The notes under the pieces: model-generated
Databases searched by the model: none
Told to the model about the DNA's origin: nothing
What the model saw: the letters and a program-made list of their open reading frames with translations, nothing else
Shown here: positions 6,330 to 10,008 of the stretch, piece by piece
Layout of the letters: the number at the start of each line of letters is the position of its first letter
Position numbering within the stretch: the stretch's first letter is position 1
NCBI GenBank assembly: GCA_947252975.1
Contig: CAMXWX010000032.1
Coordinates: forward strand, 1-10,154
Direction of reading: 5' to 3'
Origin: an uncultured Gardnerella sp.
GTDB taxonomy: Bacteria > Actinomycetota > Actinomycetes > Actinomycetales > Bifidobacteriaceae
DNA: 10,154 bases
Made by a program: the position numbers and the translations under genes

Positions 6330-7559
6330 TTACTTCTTAAGAGCTTCCTCAAAGCCCTTCTGGAAGTCTGCAATCTTTGCAGCGGCGTTGCCGTCGTTGA
6401 CTTCCTTGTTGGCCAATGCAGTACCGAAGGTCTTCATTGGATCCCAGAAGGCACCCATTTCTGGAACGGTTGGCTGCAAGACAGAAGTCTTAGCAATGGT
6501 GTTCATCTGAGCAACAGCGGCTGGGTTATCCTTAACAAGATCGCTCAAAGCCTTAGCAACTGGGATGTCGCCGTGAAGCTTGTACATCTGCTCCTGGGAT
6601 TCCTTAGAACCGAGGAATGCAGCGAACTTAGCGGCCATCTCTGGAGCCTTGGAGTTAGGGTTGTAAGCAACAGCCTTAGAGCCAGCGAAGGACTTCATCT
6701 GGTGCTCGCCGTCTTCGGACTTAAACTTTGGAAGCTGAGCAGCAGCGTAGTTGTCGCCCAAAGCCTTCTTTACGTCGCCAGCATCCCAAGAGCCAGAGAA
6801 GTAAGCGTCAACAGTGTGGTTCTTAATGCCAGACAAGCCAGCGCCATCGCCATCCATTACAAAGTTCTTGTTCTGAATGAGCTTTGCAACATACTTAGTG
6901 ATTTCGGCAGCCTTATCACCAATCTTGATGCCGGCCTTGCCATCGTTGCTCTTCTCGCCGAAGAGGGTCATGTTGCCATCAAGGTAGAAGCCTGGAAGGT
7001 ACCAAGCGTTGCTAATATCGAAAGCAACCTTGCCCTTTTCGAGCATCTTATCGAGGGACTTAACGTCTTCGTCGGAGAACTTGGACTTATCGTAGTACAT
7101 GAACCAAGTGTTGCCCATGTATGGAACGCCATAAAGCTTGCCATCTTGAGCGGTTACAGACTGGATGATGGTCTCATCGTTGTCTCCCTTAACCTGCTTT
7201 GCAGCATCGTCGCTCAACTCGCCAATTGCGTTTGCCTTTACCAAGTCGCCGAGCTGATCGTTAGGGAACAGGTAAACATCGGCAGCGGCCTTAGCATCCT
7301 GCTTAACTGTCTTAGCAGCATCTGGTGGTGCAACAACAGCGTTCTTAAAAGTAACTTCTGGGTGATCCTTCTGGAAGGCTTTCTCCATAGCCTGAATCCA
7401 GCCGCCAGCCTTCTGATCTTCGGAAGAAGACCATACGGTGAGCTTTACTGGGTTCGACTTGCTGCTGGAGCCAGCGTTGGTGCTAGAACCGCATGCAGCA
7501 AATCCAAACATAGTGGCGATTGCGAGGCCTGCGCCCAGCACTTTCTTCATATTCGTCAT
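6330..7559 (-). CDS. malE: Maltodextrin-binding lipoprotein, MalE type
   Basis: A 409-residue extracellular solute-binding protein of the carbohydrate ABC family, expected to capture maltodextrins and deliver them to MalFG. The N-terminus MTNMKKVLGAGLAIATMFGF leads to a lipobox FAAC with C23 as the lipidated cysteine, so the mature protein is tethered to the outside of the membrane. Family-like stretches include LTVWSSSEDQ near the mature N-terminus, YGVPYMGNTWFMYYDKSKF in the middle and a Trp-containing PEMGAFWDPM near the end. The ATG at 7559 has AGGAGG 6 nt upstream, a near-ideal ribosome binding site. Promoter and structured leader lie upstream; hairpins downstream separate it from malF. 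Ligand specificity is inferred from the pullulanase and glucosidase neighbours, not proven by residues. Confidence 0.93.
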   Translation of the reverse strand: MTNMKKVLGAGLAIATMFGFAACGSSTNAGSSSKSNPVKLTVWSSSEDQKAGGWIQAMEKAFQKDHPEVTFKNAVVAPPDAAKTVKQDAKAAADVYLFPNDQLGDLVKANAIGELSDDAAKQVKGDNDETIIQSVTAQDGKLYGVPYMGNTWFMYYDKSKFSDEDVKSLDKMLEKGKVAFDISNAWYLPGFYLDGNMTLFGEKSNDGKAGIKIGDKAAEITKYVAKLIQNKNFVMDGDGAGLSGIKNHTVDAYFSGSWDAGDVKKALGDNYAAAQLPKFKSEDGEHQMKSFAGSKAVAYNPNSKAPEMAAKFAAFLGSKESQEQMYKLHGDIPVAKALSDLVKDNPAAVAQMNTIAKTSVLQPTVPEMGAFWDPMKTFGTALANKEVNDGNAAAKIADFQKGFEEALKK

Positions 7560-7575
7560 CCTTGACCTCCTATAT

Positions 7576-7592
7576 CATGCCAGCTTGGCATG
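7576..7592 (-). promoter_or_regulatory. malE: Small perfect hairpin just upstream of the malE ribosome binding site
   Basis: CATGCCA and TGGCATG form a perfect 7-bp stem around a 3-nt loop, ending 4 nt before the AGGAGG (7566-7571). In the mRNA it could tune ribosome access or protect the 5' side; as DNA it could be a repressor site. Confidence 0.6.
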
Positions 7593-7619
7593 TTCTTTGG
7601 TGGCATAGTAACAAATTTC

Positions 7620-7665
7620 ATGTGACGCAACTTCGACGTTTCTCTGCGTTTTTGCAGCGTCACAT
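7620..7665 (-). promoter_or_regulatory. malE: Long inverted repeat in the malE leader enclosing an operator-like site
   Basis: ATGTGACGC (7620-7628) and GCGTCACAT (7657-7665) pair perfectly over 9 bp and enclose 28 nt. Inside are a CTGC/GCAG mini-hairpin and the near-palindrome AACTTCGACGTT (7629-7640), symmetrical except for one pair of positions and centred on TCGA. CG-centred palindromes flanked by AAC/GTT are typical of LacI-family sugar regulators, so this may be an operator. The same element could also fold as leader RNA, since it lies between the predicted start site and the ribosome binding site. Confidence 0.5.
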
Positions 7666-7697
7666 TTGTTGTTGAAATCTGTTTATAAGCAATGTGT

Positions 7698-7726
7698 AGT
7701 ATACACGTATATATTGTAGTTGGCAA
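7698..7726 (-). promoter_or_regulatory. malE: malE promoter (sigma-70 type)
   Basis: Minus strand: -35 TTGCCA (7721-7726), exactly 17 nt, -10 TATACT (7698-7703), each 5 of 6 to consensus. Transcription would start near 7691, leaving a leader of about 130 nt. The -10 is overlapped by the inverted repeat GTGTA-gta-TACAC (7694-7706), a possible repressor contact. A GGAAAAATTTCC near-palindrome at 7745-7756 lies upstream of the -35. Confidence 0.7.
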
Positions 7727-7763
7727 ATCATGTTGCGCGCTATTGGAAAAATTTCCGCTAAAG

Positions 7764-7791
7764 TTGTTTATTTTTGATAAAAAGTTATATT
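7764..7791 (+). promoter_or_regulatory. Weak candidate promoter reading rightward into the hairpin array
   Basis: TTGTTT (7764-7769), 16-nt spacer, TATATT (7786-7791). The surrounding DNA is 19% G+C, so such matches occur by chance. It would start an RNA near 7798, about 45 nt before the first stem. Confidence 0.22.
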
Positions 7792-7842
7792 TTATTTTGT
7801 AAATCAGTAAATTTATCGGAATTTTATTATTGATTGTTTGAC

Positions 7843-8232
7843 GCGAAGACAGGTCATGTCGCTCGCGCGGCGAAGACGTTCGCGCGCTTAGACCGCGTGC
7901 GAGTCGACGATTTCGAGCTGCATAATGCGCGAGAAATCACCTCGACTCGCTGAGCCGCTTAGCGTAGAAGCACGGTGTGCTTCTACGCGGCAAAGCGCTT
8001 TGACTGAGCTTGAAATTGCAAAACGCATTTCAAGCTCCTTCAAAGCGTGATTTGGCTCAAATGTAAAGTCCAGTGGACTTTACGTGCCAAATCAGCCGAG
8101 CGGCTACTAATAGCCGCGAGGAATAGCGCAGCTAATCTGCGCGAACGACAACCTGCCTTCGCGCTACGCTTTAAGCACTCAGGCAGGTCGTCGCGCCCGA
8201 GAATGTACGTGATTTAGGTCAAATCTGGTACA
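7843..8232. ncRNA. Array of consecutive long stem-loops: candidate structured non-coding RNA, strand unknown
   Basis: Almost every base falls in or between nested inverted repeats. P1: 7865-7887 (GCGAA/TTCGC loop GACG, plus GCGC/GCGC past a bulged G). P2: GCGAGTCGA/TCGACTCGC (7899-7907, 7942-7950) with inner GATTTC/GAAATC. P3: a perfect 12-bp stem 7962-7973 with 7977-7988, loop GGT. P4: CGCTTTGA/TCAAAGCG (7996-8003, 8040-8047), CT/CT internal loop, GAGCTTGAAAT/ATTTCAAGCTC, then GC/GC: 21 bp. P5: GATTTGGC/GCCAAATC (8049-8056, 8086-8093) enclosing GTAAAGTCC/GGACTTTAC. P6: GCGGCTA/TAGCCGC (8100-8117). P7: GCGCAG/CTGCGC (8126-8142). P8: 8146-8157 with 8182-8193, 11 of 12 paired. P9: TGTAC..GATTT/AAATC..GTACA (8204-8232). 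A weak stem P0 (7843-7862) precedes P1. No open frame of note runs through it. It is not recognisably tmRNA, RNase P, SRP, 6S or a known riboswitch. G+C is ~55% (hand count) against 19% in the 100 nt to its left. Confidence 0.6.
7991..8002. promoter_or_regulatory. Perfect 12-bp palindrome CAAAGCGCTTTG inside the array
   Basis: This resembles the cre/LacI-family operator core (AAAGCGCTTT) and sits in the region between the divergent malE and glucosidase genes. It overlaps the left arm of stem P4, so it may simply be a by-product of that stem. It is also about 290 nt from the malE promoter, far for simple repression. Confidence 0.3.
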
Positions 8233-8257
8233 AAACCCGGGAAAAGCAAGAATGTTA

Positions 8258-8286
8258 ATAGTAAAATAAAAGATAAGTCACGCCAA
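8258..8286 (-). promoter_or_regulatory. Candidate promoter reading leftward into the hairpin array
   Basis: Minus strand: TTGGCG (8281-8286), exactly 17 nt, TACTAT (8258-8263), each about 4 of 6 to consensus. Transcription would start near 8251, about 19 nt before stem P9, a natural place for the 5' end of an RNA covering the array. Confidence 0.3.
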
Positions 8287-8300
8287 CAAAACCAACAAAA
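8283..8300 (+). repeat. Tandem 9-nt repeat CCAACAAAA x2 in the glucosidase leader
   Basis: Two perfect, adjacent copies (8283-8291, 8292-8300) end just before the GGGGGAAAT ribosome binding region. The A/C-rich, unstructured sequence may help ribosome loading or be a small regulator target. No clear -35/-10 pair for the plus-strand gene was found upstream. Confidence 0.55.
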
Positions 8301-8310
8301 CGGGGGAAAT

Positions 8311-10008
8311 ATGCAAAACGAACATGCGCAATGGCTGCGCGACGCCGTATTCTACGAAATCTACCCACAAAGCTTCTATGATTCAAACGGCGACGGAATC
8401 GGCGATATTCCAGGCATAATCGAAAAACTCGACTACGTAAAATCGCTTGGTTGCAACGCAATCTGGCTAAATCCTTGCTACGATTCTCCATTTAAGGATG
8501 CAGGCTACGACGTGCGCGACTACAAAAAAGTGGCAGCGCGCTACGGCACAAACGAGGATTTGCAACGTCTTTTTAGCGAAGCGCATAATCGCGGAATGCA
8601 CATTTTGCTAGACCTTGTTCCAGGTCACACAAGCGAAGAGCACGAGTGGTTTAAGCAAAGCTCGCGCGCGCAAGAAAACGAGTTTAGCAAGCGATACATA
8701 TGGACAGACAGCGCGTTCAGTGGCTATTCCATGCCGTTTATTGGCGGCGAAAGTGAGCGAGATGCAACGTATATTCTTAACTTCTTTAAATGCCAGCCAG
8801 CGCTAAATTACGGCTTTGCGCAAAGGGATTGCGCGTGGCAATCCGCGCCAGATTCCGCGGAGGCTGCACAAACGCGCGCTGCAATGGTTGATGTTATGCG
8901 ATTTTGGCTTTCGCTTGGCGCAGACGGATTCCGCGTAGACATGGCGGATTCGCTTGTAAAAAACGACGACAACAATGGCCCTGGAAGCCTTGGCAAAGAC
9001 AACACGATTCGCGCATGGCAAGAAATGCTGGGCGCTGTAAAAGCCGAGTATCCGCAGGCTGCTTTTGTTTCGGAGTGGGGCAGGCCTCGTCAGGCGCTGA
9101 CTGCTGGATTCGACATGGACTTCTATTTGAATTGGCGATGGGATGGGAATCCTAACGGTTATGCGCGCCTGGCTAGAGATGTGGATAATGCGCTAGACAG
9201 CAGCCCCGAGCACGACCACAGCTACTTTAATGCGCGCGGCGGCGGCAGCATTTGCCCATTCTTAGACGATTATTGCCCGCAGTATGAGGCTACTTGCAAC
9301 GAGGGCTACTTTAGCTTTATAACGTGCAATCACGATACGCCGCGTTTGGCTCCGCGATTAAGTGAGCGCGAAAGGCGGATTGCGTTTGGCATGATTCTTA
9401 CAATGCCAGGTGTGCCGTTTGTGTATTACGGCGACGAAATCGGCATGAAATACCGCGATATTCCTACAAAAGAGGGCGGTTATGCGCGCACGGGTACGCG
9501 TACGCCAATGCAATGGGATGATTCCAAGAATTTTGGATTCTCTGCGGCCGCAAAGTCGAAGTTGTACCTGCCTGTTGAGGTGCGCGCGGATGGAAGGACT
9601 TGCGCAAATTCGCGCAAGCAGGCCGTGCAAAGTGGCGAAATTCCAACGGTTTTGGGGCAGGAGCAGGATGGTGATTCGCTGCTTAACTGGGTGCGTGCGT
9701 TGATTGCTTTGCGTCACGAGTGCGCGGCGTTGCACGCGGATGCCACTTGGCGAGTGTTGCACGCGCCTGTGGATGGTCGCAGTTTTGCGTACGAGCGGTG
9801 CGCGGCTGTGTCGGATGGCGAATCCTCTACAGAACGAATCATTGTTGTTATGAATCCTGGATTAAACGAGGAGACGATTGCGCTTAGCGCGCTTGCAGGG
9901 CTTACGCCAGAGGCGATTTTGCAGCCGCGGATTTCGGTTGGAGCGGTTGCTTGCGATTCTTCCGCGCTTAAACTCGGCGCGCAGTCCTTTGCCCTGTTTG
10001 TTTTATAA
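8311..10008 (+). CDS. GH13 alpha-glucosidase-like enzyme (alpha-1,4/1,6), cytoplasmic
   Basis: A 565-residue GH13 hydrolase. The N-terminus WLRDAVFYEIYPQSF opens the catalytic barrel, followed by a calcium-site-like DSNGDGIGDIPG (24-35). Catalytic regions: I DLVPGH (101-106), II GFRVDMADS with nucleophile D210, III VSEWG with acid/base E255, IV CNHDTPR with H341 and D342. RTPMQWD (397-403) is typical of oligo-1,6-glucosidase and trehalose synthase relatives. A C-terminal beta domain ends near 565. There is no signal peptide, so it should act inside the cell, releasing glucose from maltodextrins, including products of the pullulanase. Exact specificity (alpha-1,4, alpha-1,6 or transglycosylation) cannot be read from the motifs. 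The ATG at 8311 has GGGGG 5 nt upstream. It is transcribed away from the mal cluster and is followed by a tandem hairpin repeat. Confidence 0.88.
   Translation: MQNEHAQWLRDAVFYEIYPQSFYDSNGDGIGDIPGIIEKLDYVKSLGCNAIWLNPCYDSPFKDAGYDVRDYKKVAARYGTNEDLQRLFSEAHNRGMHILLDLVPGHTSEEHEWFKQSSRAQENEFSKRYIWTDSAFSGYSMPFIGGESERDATYILNFFKCQPALNYGFAQRDCAWQSAPDSAEAAQTRAAMVDVMRFWLSLGADGFRVDMADSLVKNDDNNGPGSLGKDNTIRAWQEMLGAVKAEYPQAAFVSEWGRPRQALTAGFDMDFYLNWRWDGNPNGYARLARDVDNALDSSPEHDHSYFNARGGGSICPFLDDYCPQYEATCNEGYFSFITCNHDTPRLAPRLSERERRIAFGMILTMPGVPFVYYGDEIGMKYRDIPTKEGGYARTGTRTPMQWDDSKNFGFSAAAKSKLYLPVEVRADGRTCANSRKQAVQSGEIPTVLGQEQDGDSLLNWVRALIALRHECAALHADATWRVLHAPVDGRSFAYERCAAVSDGESSTERIIVVMNPGLNEETIALSALAGLTPEAILQPRISVGAVACDSSALKLGAQSFALFVL

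Follow-up and report, generated by a model that had tools for sequence, protein, structure and literature searches.

A dispersed three-hairpin repeat of Gardnerella, probably a BOX-like mobile element, between malE and a GH13 gene

The G+C-rich hairpin block that separates malE from a GH13 gene in the 10,154-nucleotide stretch of DNA analysed here (the window) is best explained as a mosaic of a Gardnerella interspersed three-hairpin repeat, and this repeat is likely a BOX-like non-autonomous mobile element recognised by its folded strand, a reading that we favour with some reserve. The repeat is present in many copies, lies between genes, follows a modular H1-H2-H3 plan and is present or absent at given sites in different strains. 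Its stems covary, and the mismatches that they tolerate are biased towards one strand.

The hairpin block and its parts

The window comes from a Gardnerella close to G. piotii, its GH13 protein sharing 97% identity with a protein of Gardnerella piotii UGent 18.01. The two genes, whose names are those of the first-pass annotation, are divergent, and the unit between them has the same sense as the GH13 gene. When folded locally, the stretch 7836-8241 is predicted to form nine hairpins, with 22, 22, 15, 22, 19, 9, 6, 16 and 15 pairs. The fold of the whole block on the + strand reaches -197.3 kcal/mol, compared with -136.4 (sd 5.8) for shuffled sequences (z -10.5, none of 100 shuffles being as good); on the - strand the z value is -11.3. 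The nine stem-loops of the first-pass annotation are thus real, but they do not make up one element: the stretch 8196-8241 is part of another dispersed repeat, and the first hairpin, 7836-7893, does fold but does so across pieces of modules and is not itself a module. The symmetrical CT/CT internal loop described there is found at 8004-8005 / 8038-8039. The lack of coding potential noted there agrees with the window's ORFs of at least 80 aa, none of which overlaps the block, and the failure to name an RNA class for it agrees with Rfam, which has no family at gathering score for the window or for seven loci with copies of the unit. Promoter and terminator scans of 7540-8330 return one site each, which is about the shuffle level.

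The core of the block is a unit of ~125 nt with three hairpins, H1, H2 and H3, whose plan recurs among 21 folded loci of the nearest genome (G001). H1 consists of 9 bp, a 2x2 internal loop, ~11 bp and a loop of ~10-12 nt. The linker TGAGC leads to H2, whose outer stem (5-8 bp) is set off by a 5' bulge from an inner stem (8-11 bp) capped by a 3-nt loop, and the linker GAAGACG leads to H3, with a stem of 9-11 bp and a loop of 5-7 nt. The linkers are constant and the stem alleles vary widely, H1 occurring for example as GCGCTCCGA, GCGCTTTGA, GCGAATCGA and GCGCGCCAA; linker letters alone retrieve 49 units from G001 and the fetched part of a second genome, G002. In G001, BLAST matches to the block repeatedly end at set points in it, implying that it is built of modules, and the orders of these modules recur as well. 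Half-units and opposed units are frequent among the G001 loci, and many copies are fragments or mosaics. The parts of the window are as follows.

6330-7559, - strand: malE.
7865..7897, + strand: unit fragment comprising the end of H2, the linker GAAGACG and a shortened H3; in G001, BLAST modules have recurrent boundaries at element positions 22-23 and 55.
7899..8009, + strand: best match in the window to the covariance model of the three-hairpin unit (58.3 bits, E 4e-13; second run E 5e-12).
7899..7950, + strand: H1, allele with stems GCGAGTCGA and GATTTC, from the fold; the same allele occurs at G001 C2:496043 and G002 C25:166689.
7951-7955, + strand: linker TGAGC before H2.
7954..7991, + strand: H2, from the fold, in which a 5' bulge separates the outer stem GCCGC/GCGGC from a 10-bp inner stem; other copies carry alleles of it.
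7995..8048, + strand: H1, allele GCGCTTTGA with the CT/CT internal loop, from the fold; copies at G001 C2:1379754 and C3:63163.
8048..8094, + strand: H2, from the fold, in an allele whose base is TGATTTGGC/GCCAAATCA and whose inner stem is GTAAAGTCC/GGACTTTAC; in this region BLAST module 153-290 is repeated at 96% identity, and there is a weak model match at 8047-8146 (E 1.3e-4).
8095..8121, + strand: extra hairpin after the TGATTTGGC/GCCAAATCA allele of H2, from the fold.
8122..8147, + strand: H3 with loop CTAAT and a shortened 5' side, from the fold.
8146..8193, - strand: reversed H1 (loop TTAAAGCGTA on the - strand), the end of a second, opposed unit, from the fold and BLAST module 316-354; the opposed unit has a weak model match at 8096-8196 on the - strand (E 0.0034).
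8196..8241, no strand assigned: piece of another dispersed palindromic repeat (TGTACGTGATTT...); 31 matches end at element position 390 in G001.
8311-10008, + strand: GH13 gene.

A further contact, between TGAGCC and GGCTCA, had been suggested in the first-pass annotation and does not stand. These letters are constant parts of two modules, and in four other copies of the arrangement the pairing is kept in one (C2:1309156) and lost in three, which read TGAGCT at G001 C2:188519, TGAGCA at C2:1023343 and TGAGCT with GGCTTA at G002 C19:207583. The second dispersed repeat, TGTACGTGATTT...AAATCTGGTACA, often forms tandem pairs in G001.

Conservation of the fold on one strand

A search for covariation among relatives, which the first-pass annotation had proposed, reveals compensatory double changes in copies of the unit. 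In an alignment of 72 distinct matches from eight other Gardnerella genomes, fitted to a covariance model built from 37 units, 89.8% of cells pair and 39 of 42 pairs show double changes. Double changes occupy 431 cells of this alignment, itself fitted to the model; shuffles give 122 and slid controls no more than 51. The unfitted MAFFT alignment A1 has 83.0% of cells paired (75.7% in shuffles), double changes in 22 of 42 pairs and 113 double-change cells (shuffles 38, slid controls up to 43); because the copies share ancestry, such counts, fitted or unfitted, are not numbers of independent events. Further pair types in A1 do not exceed the shuffles (42 vs 43.7).

The mismatches are more telling as to strand. 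For this count, units were found by their linker letters and stems were registered by Watson-Crick matches only, a rule that is neutral between strands. Among 36 distinct H1 hairpins of G001 and G002 (11 of 49 units, without an H1, being excluded), GA/AG makes up 31 of 42 adjacent double mismatches and its complement CT/TC none; for 45 distinct H1 hairpins of other genomes (20 of 71 units excluded) the figures are 64 of 82 and, again, none. At the base of H2, in 42 distinct copies from other Gardnerella, GA faces GA in 28 and TC in 12, the latter being a Watson-Crick swap of the same two positions. Mismatches in H3 show the same trend (G-A 29 and 31, T-C 0 and 3). G.T is favoured over A.C in H1 of G001 and G002 (15 to 3) and in H3 (11 to 3 and 5 to 1); the H1 hairpins of the other genomes, some of whose rows are misregistered, show no such preference (13 to 17). 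Sheared G.A pairs in tandem are stable in DNA strands as well as in RNA. Since in H1 GA/AG takes the place of lost Watson-Crick pairs and its complement never does, it must be the fold of one strand, as RNA or as single-stranded DNA, that is selected. The strand that is kept is the folded H1-H2-H3 strand and, judged from sequence, either nucleic acid would fit. Neither copying between arms nor decay would give covariation together with this one-strand GA/AG pattern. The unit is thus a bacterial interspersed repeat for which selection on the fold of one strand can be demonstrated, through mismatch chemistry and covariation, rather than presumed palindromic debris.

Copy number and turnover among strains

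BLAST with the block, likewise proposed in the first-pass annotation, finds dispersed copies: 163 matches in G001, 103 in G002, the other of the two nearest genomes, and between 15 and 76 in each of eight further Gardnerella genomes. The G001 matches in C2 and C3:1-80000 resolve into 61 loci, nearly all of them between ORFs as called by a crude ORF caller. With the covariance model, ten Gardnerella genomes give 57 (the nearest genome), 33, 25, 13, 45, 31, 65, 23, 46 and 32 hits, which are matches and not strictly loci, some of them overlapping on opposite strands; the control, Bifidobacterium polysaccharolyticum, gives none. A survey of 151 family genomes gives 17 with matches; seven of them have at least 12 and ten have one or two weak ones (E 2.5e-6 to 7e-4). 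The seven rich genomes are six of the ten already used plus G139, the four other Gardnerella genomes lying outside that draw. Phage and plasmid collections contain no match to the block, and literature searched at the level of titles and the beginnings of abstracts holds no report of such a Gardnerella repeat, a weak negative.

At the malE-GH13 site the unit model matches the window and one other locus (L001) and none of nine others. The units of the window and of G. piotii differ, G. piotii having another arrangement; scraps and tandem repeats occupy the site in a third strain (L002), and a short spacer in the other species. The tandem CCCGCGTTTGTTTC... repeats of the third strain stand in place of the unit, at L002:4650-4900. 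Elsewhere, 38 G001 loci were compared with the fetched part of G002: 21 have no orthologous flank pair there, and the 17 that are comparable comprise seven sites with a unit, seven with none and three at an assembly gap. Orthologous sites that are occupied often carry different alleles. The site at G001 C2:1379754 differs among three genomes: the first has a unit, the second has other repeats instead, and the third has a unit in the opposite orientation that follows a terminator-like hairpin.

Does this turnover imply movement? It fits both movement and recombination. Units stand, however, at sites that are empty in near relatives and, at two G001 loci, inside the loop of another repeat, and for these reasons we judge that movement has happened; the units would then be mobile in themselves, and not only shuffled by homologous recombination. 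A constant target duplication was considered as the rule and rejected: a 20-bp direct repeat flanks the unit at G001 C2:1379754, and direct repeats of at least 13 bp flank only 4 of 42 clusters, with differing lengths, two of the four being other repeats. A third, longer hairpin repeat, GAGATTCGAGATTTTTC...GAAAAATCGAGAATCTC, is seen at L135:~3800, G001 C2:1376364 and C2:1395932, with units in its loop at both C2 sites.

The first-pass annotation had offered a choice between a large structured RNA and, as its last alternative, a mosaic of short palindromic repeats, and had named many dispersed copies as one of two outcomes that would count against the former. With dispersed copies and modules now found, the mosaic is the alternative that is borne out. 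The structured-RNA idea survives in part, the fold being kept by compensatory change on one strand; what falls is the single RNA of this locus, the block being dispersed, strain-variable and a mosaic. The choice itself does not hold, since the repeats themselves have a selected fold.

The placement of units along the chromosome is uneven. Among the 31 loci on C2 of G001, none falls in a 427-kb stretch at C2:597000-1023000 (P 0.00015 for uniform placement, 0.0012 on intergenic bases); the stretch is centred on the GC-skew maximum, presumed to be the terminus. G139 shows what may be a similar sparse zone, with 3 of 49 matches between 409 and 1,040 kb.

Relation to known repeats and alternative explanations

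The closest parallel is with the BOX elements of Streptococcus pneumoniae (boxA-boxB-boxC), which are described as modular, many-copy intergenic elements that are predicted to form RNA stem-loops, lie nested within other repeats, vary in presence from strain to strain and are proposed to be parasites moved in trans (PMC3049150). The Gardnerella unit resembles that description (PMC3049150) in each structural and distributional respect, having many short intergenic copies (the 61 G001 loci; 13-65 model matches per genome), variable modular composition, with recurrent module boundaries and orders, a predicted fold, nesting in other repeats and strain-variable presence (seven comparable sites occupied, seven empty and three at gaps). 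By analogy it may work like a BOX-type element. It differs in that its stems turn over almost wholly and in that GA/AG stands in for Watson-Crick pairs on one strand. We claim no shared sequence and imply no relatedness, and no related IS ends were found. Neisserial intergenic mosaic elements are also mosaics of short repeats in intergenic DNA, but belong to another genus, and the passage that names them describes no three-hairpin unit (PMC3049150). REP/BIME elements with RAYT transposases are likewise dispersed palindromic extragenic repeats in alternating orientation (PMC2817692); the Gardnerella unit is nevertheless not a REP/RAYT element, the Y1 transposase being found in 0 of 10 genomes. 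In its preference of fold over letters the unit is also like the attC sites of integrons, although cassettes are absent and the attC core letters are not evident. Integron attC sites are recombination sites that are read as folded single strands, with structure kept over sequence.

How might such a unit spread? As a non-autonomous element it would pass between intergenic sites, its folded single strand serving as the predicted handle for a copying or joining enzyme; the fold would then be needed for movement. Transcription through a unit would place its hairpins in the RNA, where they could affect processing or stability. Searches of ten Gardnerella genomes for candidate enzymes gave no Y1 transposase (PF01797; positive in 5 of 14 controls), reverse transcriptase (PF00078; 3 of 14) or IS110 transposase (PF01548; 4 of 14), and one match, below cut-off and with stops, to the Cas12f1-like zinc ribbon of TnpB (PF07282). 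REP/RAYT, retroelement or retron, IS110 bridge RNA and TnpB/omega-RNA partners were rejected, these searches having found none of their enzymes in the ten genomes except for that one broken match. A longer autonomous element around the unit was likewise rejected: the long flanks that G001 copies share consist of other repeats or repeated gene parts, and a common coding element was not seen. The lack of these enzymes and of a constant target duplication counts against a BOX-like mobile element, as do the rve-type transposase matches discussed below, the missing G.T preference in H1 of the other genomes and the fact that recombination alone could produce fragments and mosaics. If the fold is indeed the handle of a mobilising enzyme, that enzyme would be of a kind missed by four obvious searches. 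In its strongest form, this proposal would have a Gardnerella-restricted element propagating as a folded single strand. Its three hairpins, with letters almost wholly replaceable and sheared tandem G.A allowed for Watson-Crick pairs, would be the code by which an enzyme recognises the element and inserts it between genes, by copying or by joining. We put this form forward only tentatively.

Somewhat less probable again is that the units serve the host as cis-acting RNA, as processing or stability elements at mRNA ends that are kept by selection at their sites and passed on by recombination. Conservation of the fold on one strand is what such a role would predict. By type of gap, the 38 G001 model loci divide into 18 tandem, 11 convergent and 8 divergent, with 1 more at an edge, and convergent gaps are in excess (11 of 37 classed loci vs 65 of 442 background gaps, P 0.03). 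Within tandem gaps, 16 units share the direction of the genes and 9 oppose it, which is not significant (P 0.23). None of the 38 lies inside a long ORF, on crude ORF calls, and short ORFs (101-184 aa) contain 6 of 49 units. Against a host function, however, divergent gene pairs flank 8 of the 37 loci, which is also the arrangement of the window; a near strain lacks the unit at 7 of 14 resolved sites; half-units and units in opposition occur often; and H3 is not followed by a terminator-like T tract in the flanks examined.

Could the unit be an ordinary DNA-level MITE, moved by a DDE transposase, whose palindromes act as cruciforms or protein-binding DNA with no single-strand role? Its size, copy number and intergenic sites would suit, as would the one 20-bp flanking duplication, and since rve-type transposase matches (rve being the DDE family covered by the search) occur in 5 of 10 genomes, the idea keeps a small probability. 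Double-stranded DNA, however, gives no preference for GA/AG over CT/TC, seen here at 31 to 0 and 64 to 0, and the unit is made of three distinct hairpins, not of a single terminal inverted repeat pair, and has no constant target duplication. Even less likely, in our view, are mutational palindromes, whose arms correct each other by template switching and so covary without selection. The stems are near-perfect, and at G002 C18:16031 a deletion relative to G001 joins similar loop letters; but correction between arms should yield Watson-Crick pairs. It would not produce GA/AG tandems that recur on one strand at given positions of the stem, and it leaves the constant bulges and internal loops unexplained. 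One large structured RNA gene specific to malE-GH13, for all the strength of the fold, is effectively ruled out by the dispersed copies and by relatives in which the block is different or absent at the same site.

The units that come and go beside sugar-uptake and other genes of Gardnerella would change leaders, tails and strain typing.

Finally, viral contigs were searched with exact patterns of the unit. Two patterns had no match, and a third matched two viral-labelled contigs, in which the model places units at L345:2527-2650 and L346:2651-2794. Both units adjoin large ORFs that we take to be recombinase-like, and such contigs may be a possible vehicle.
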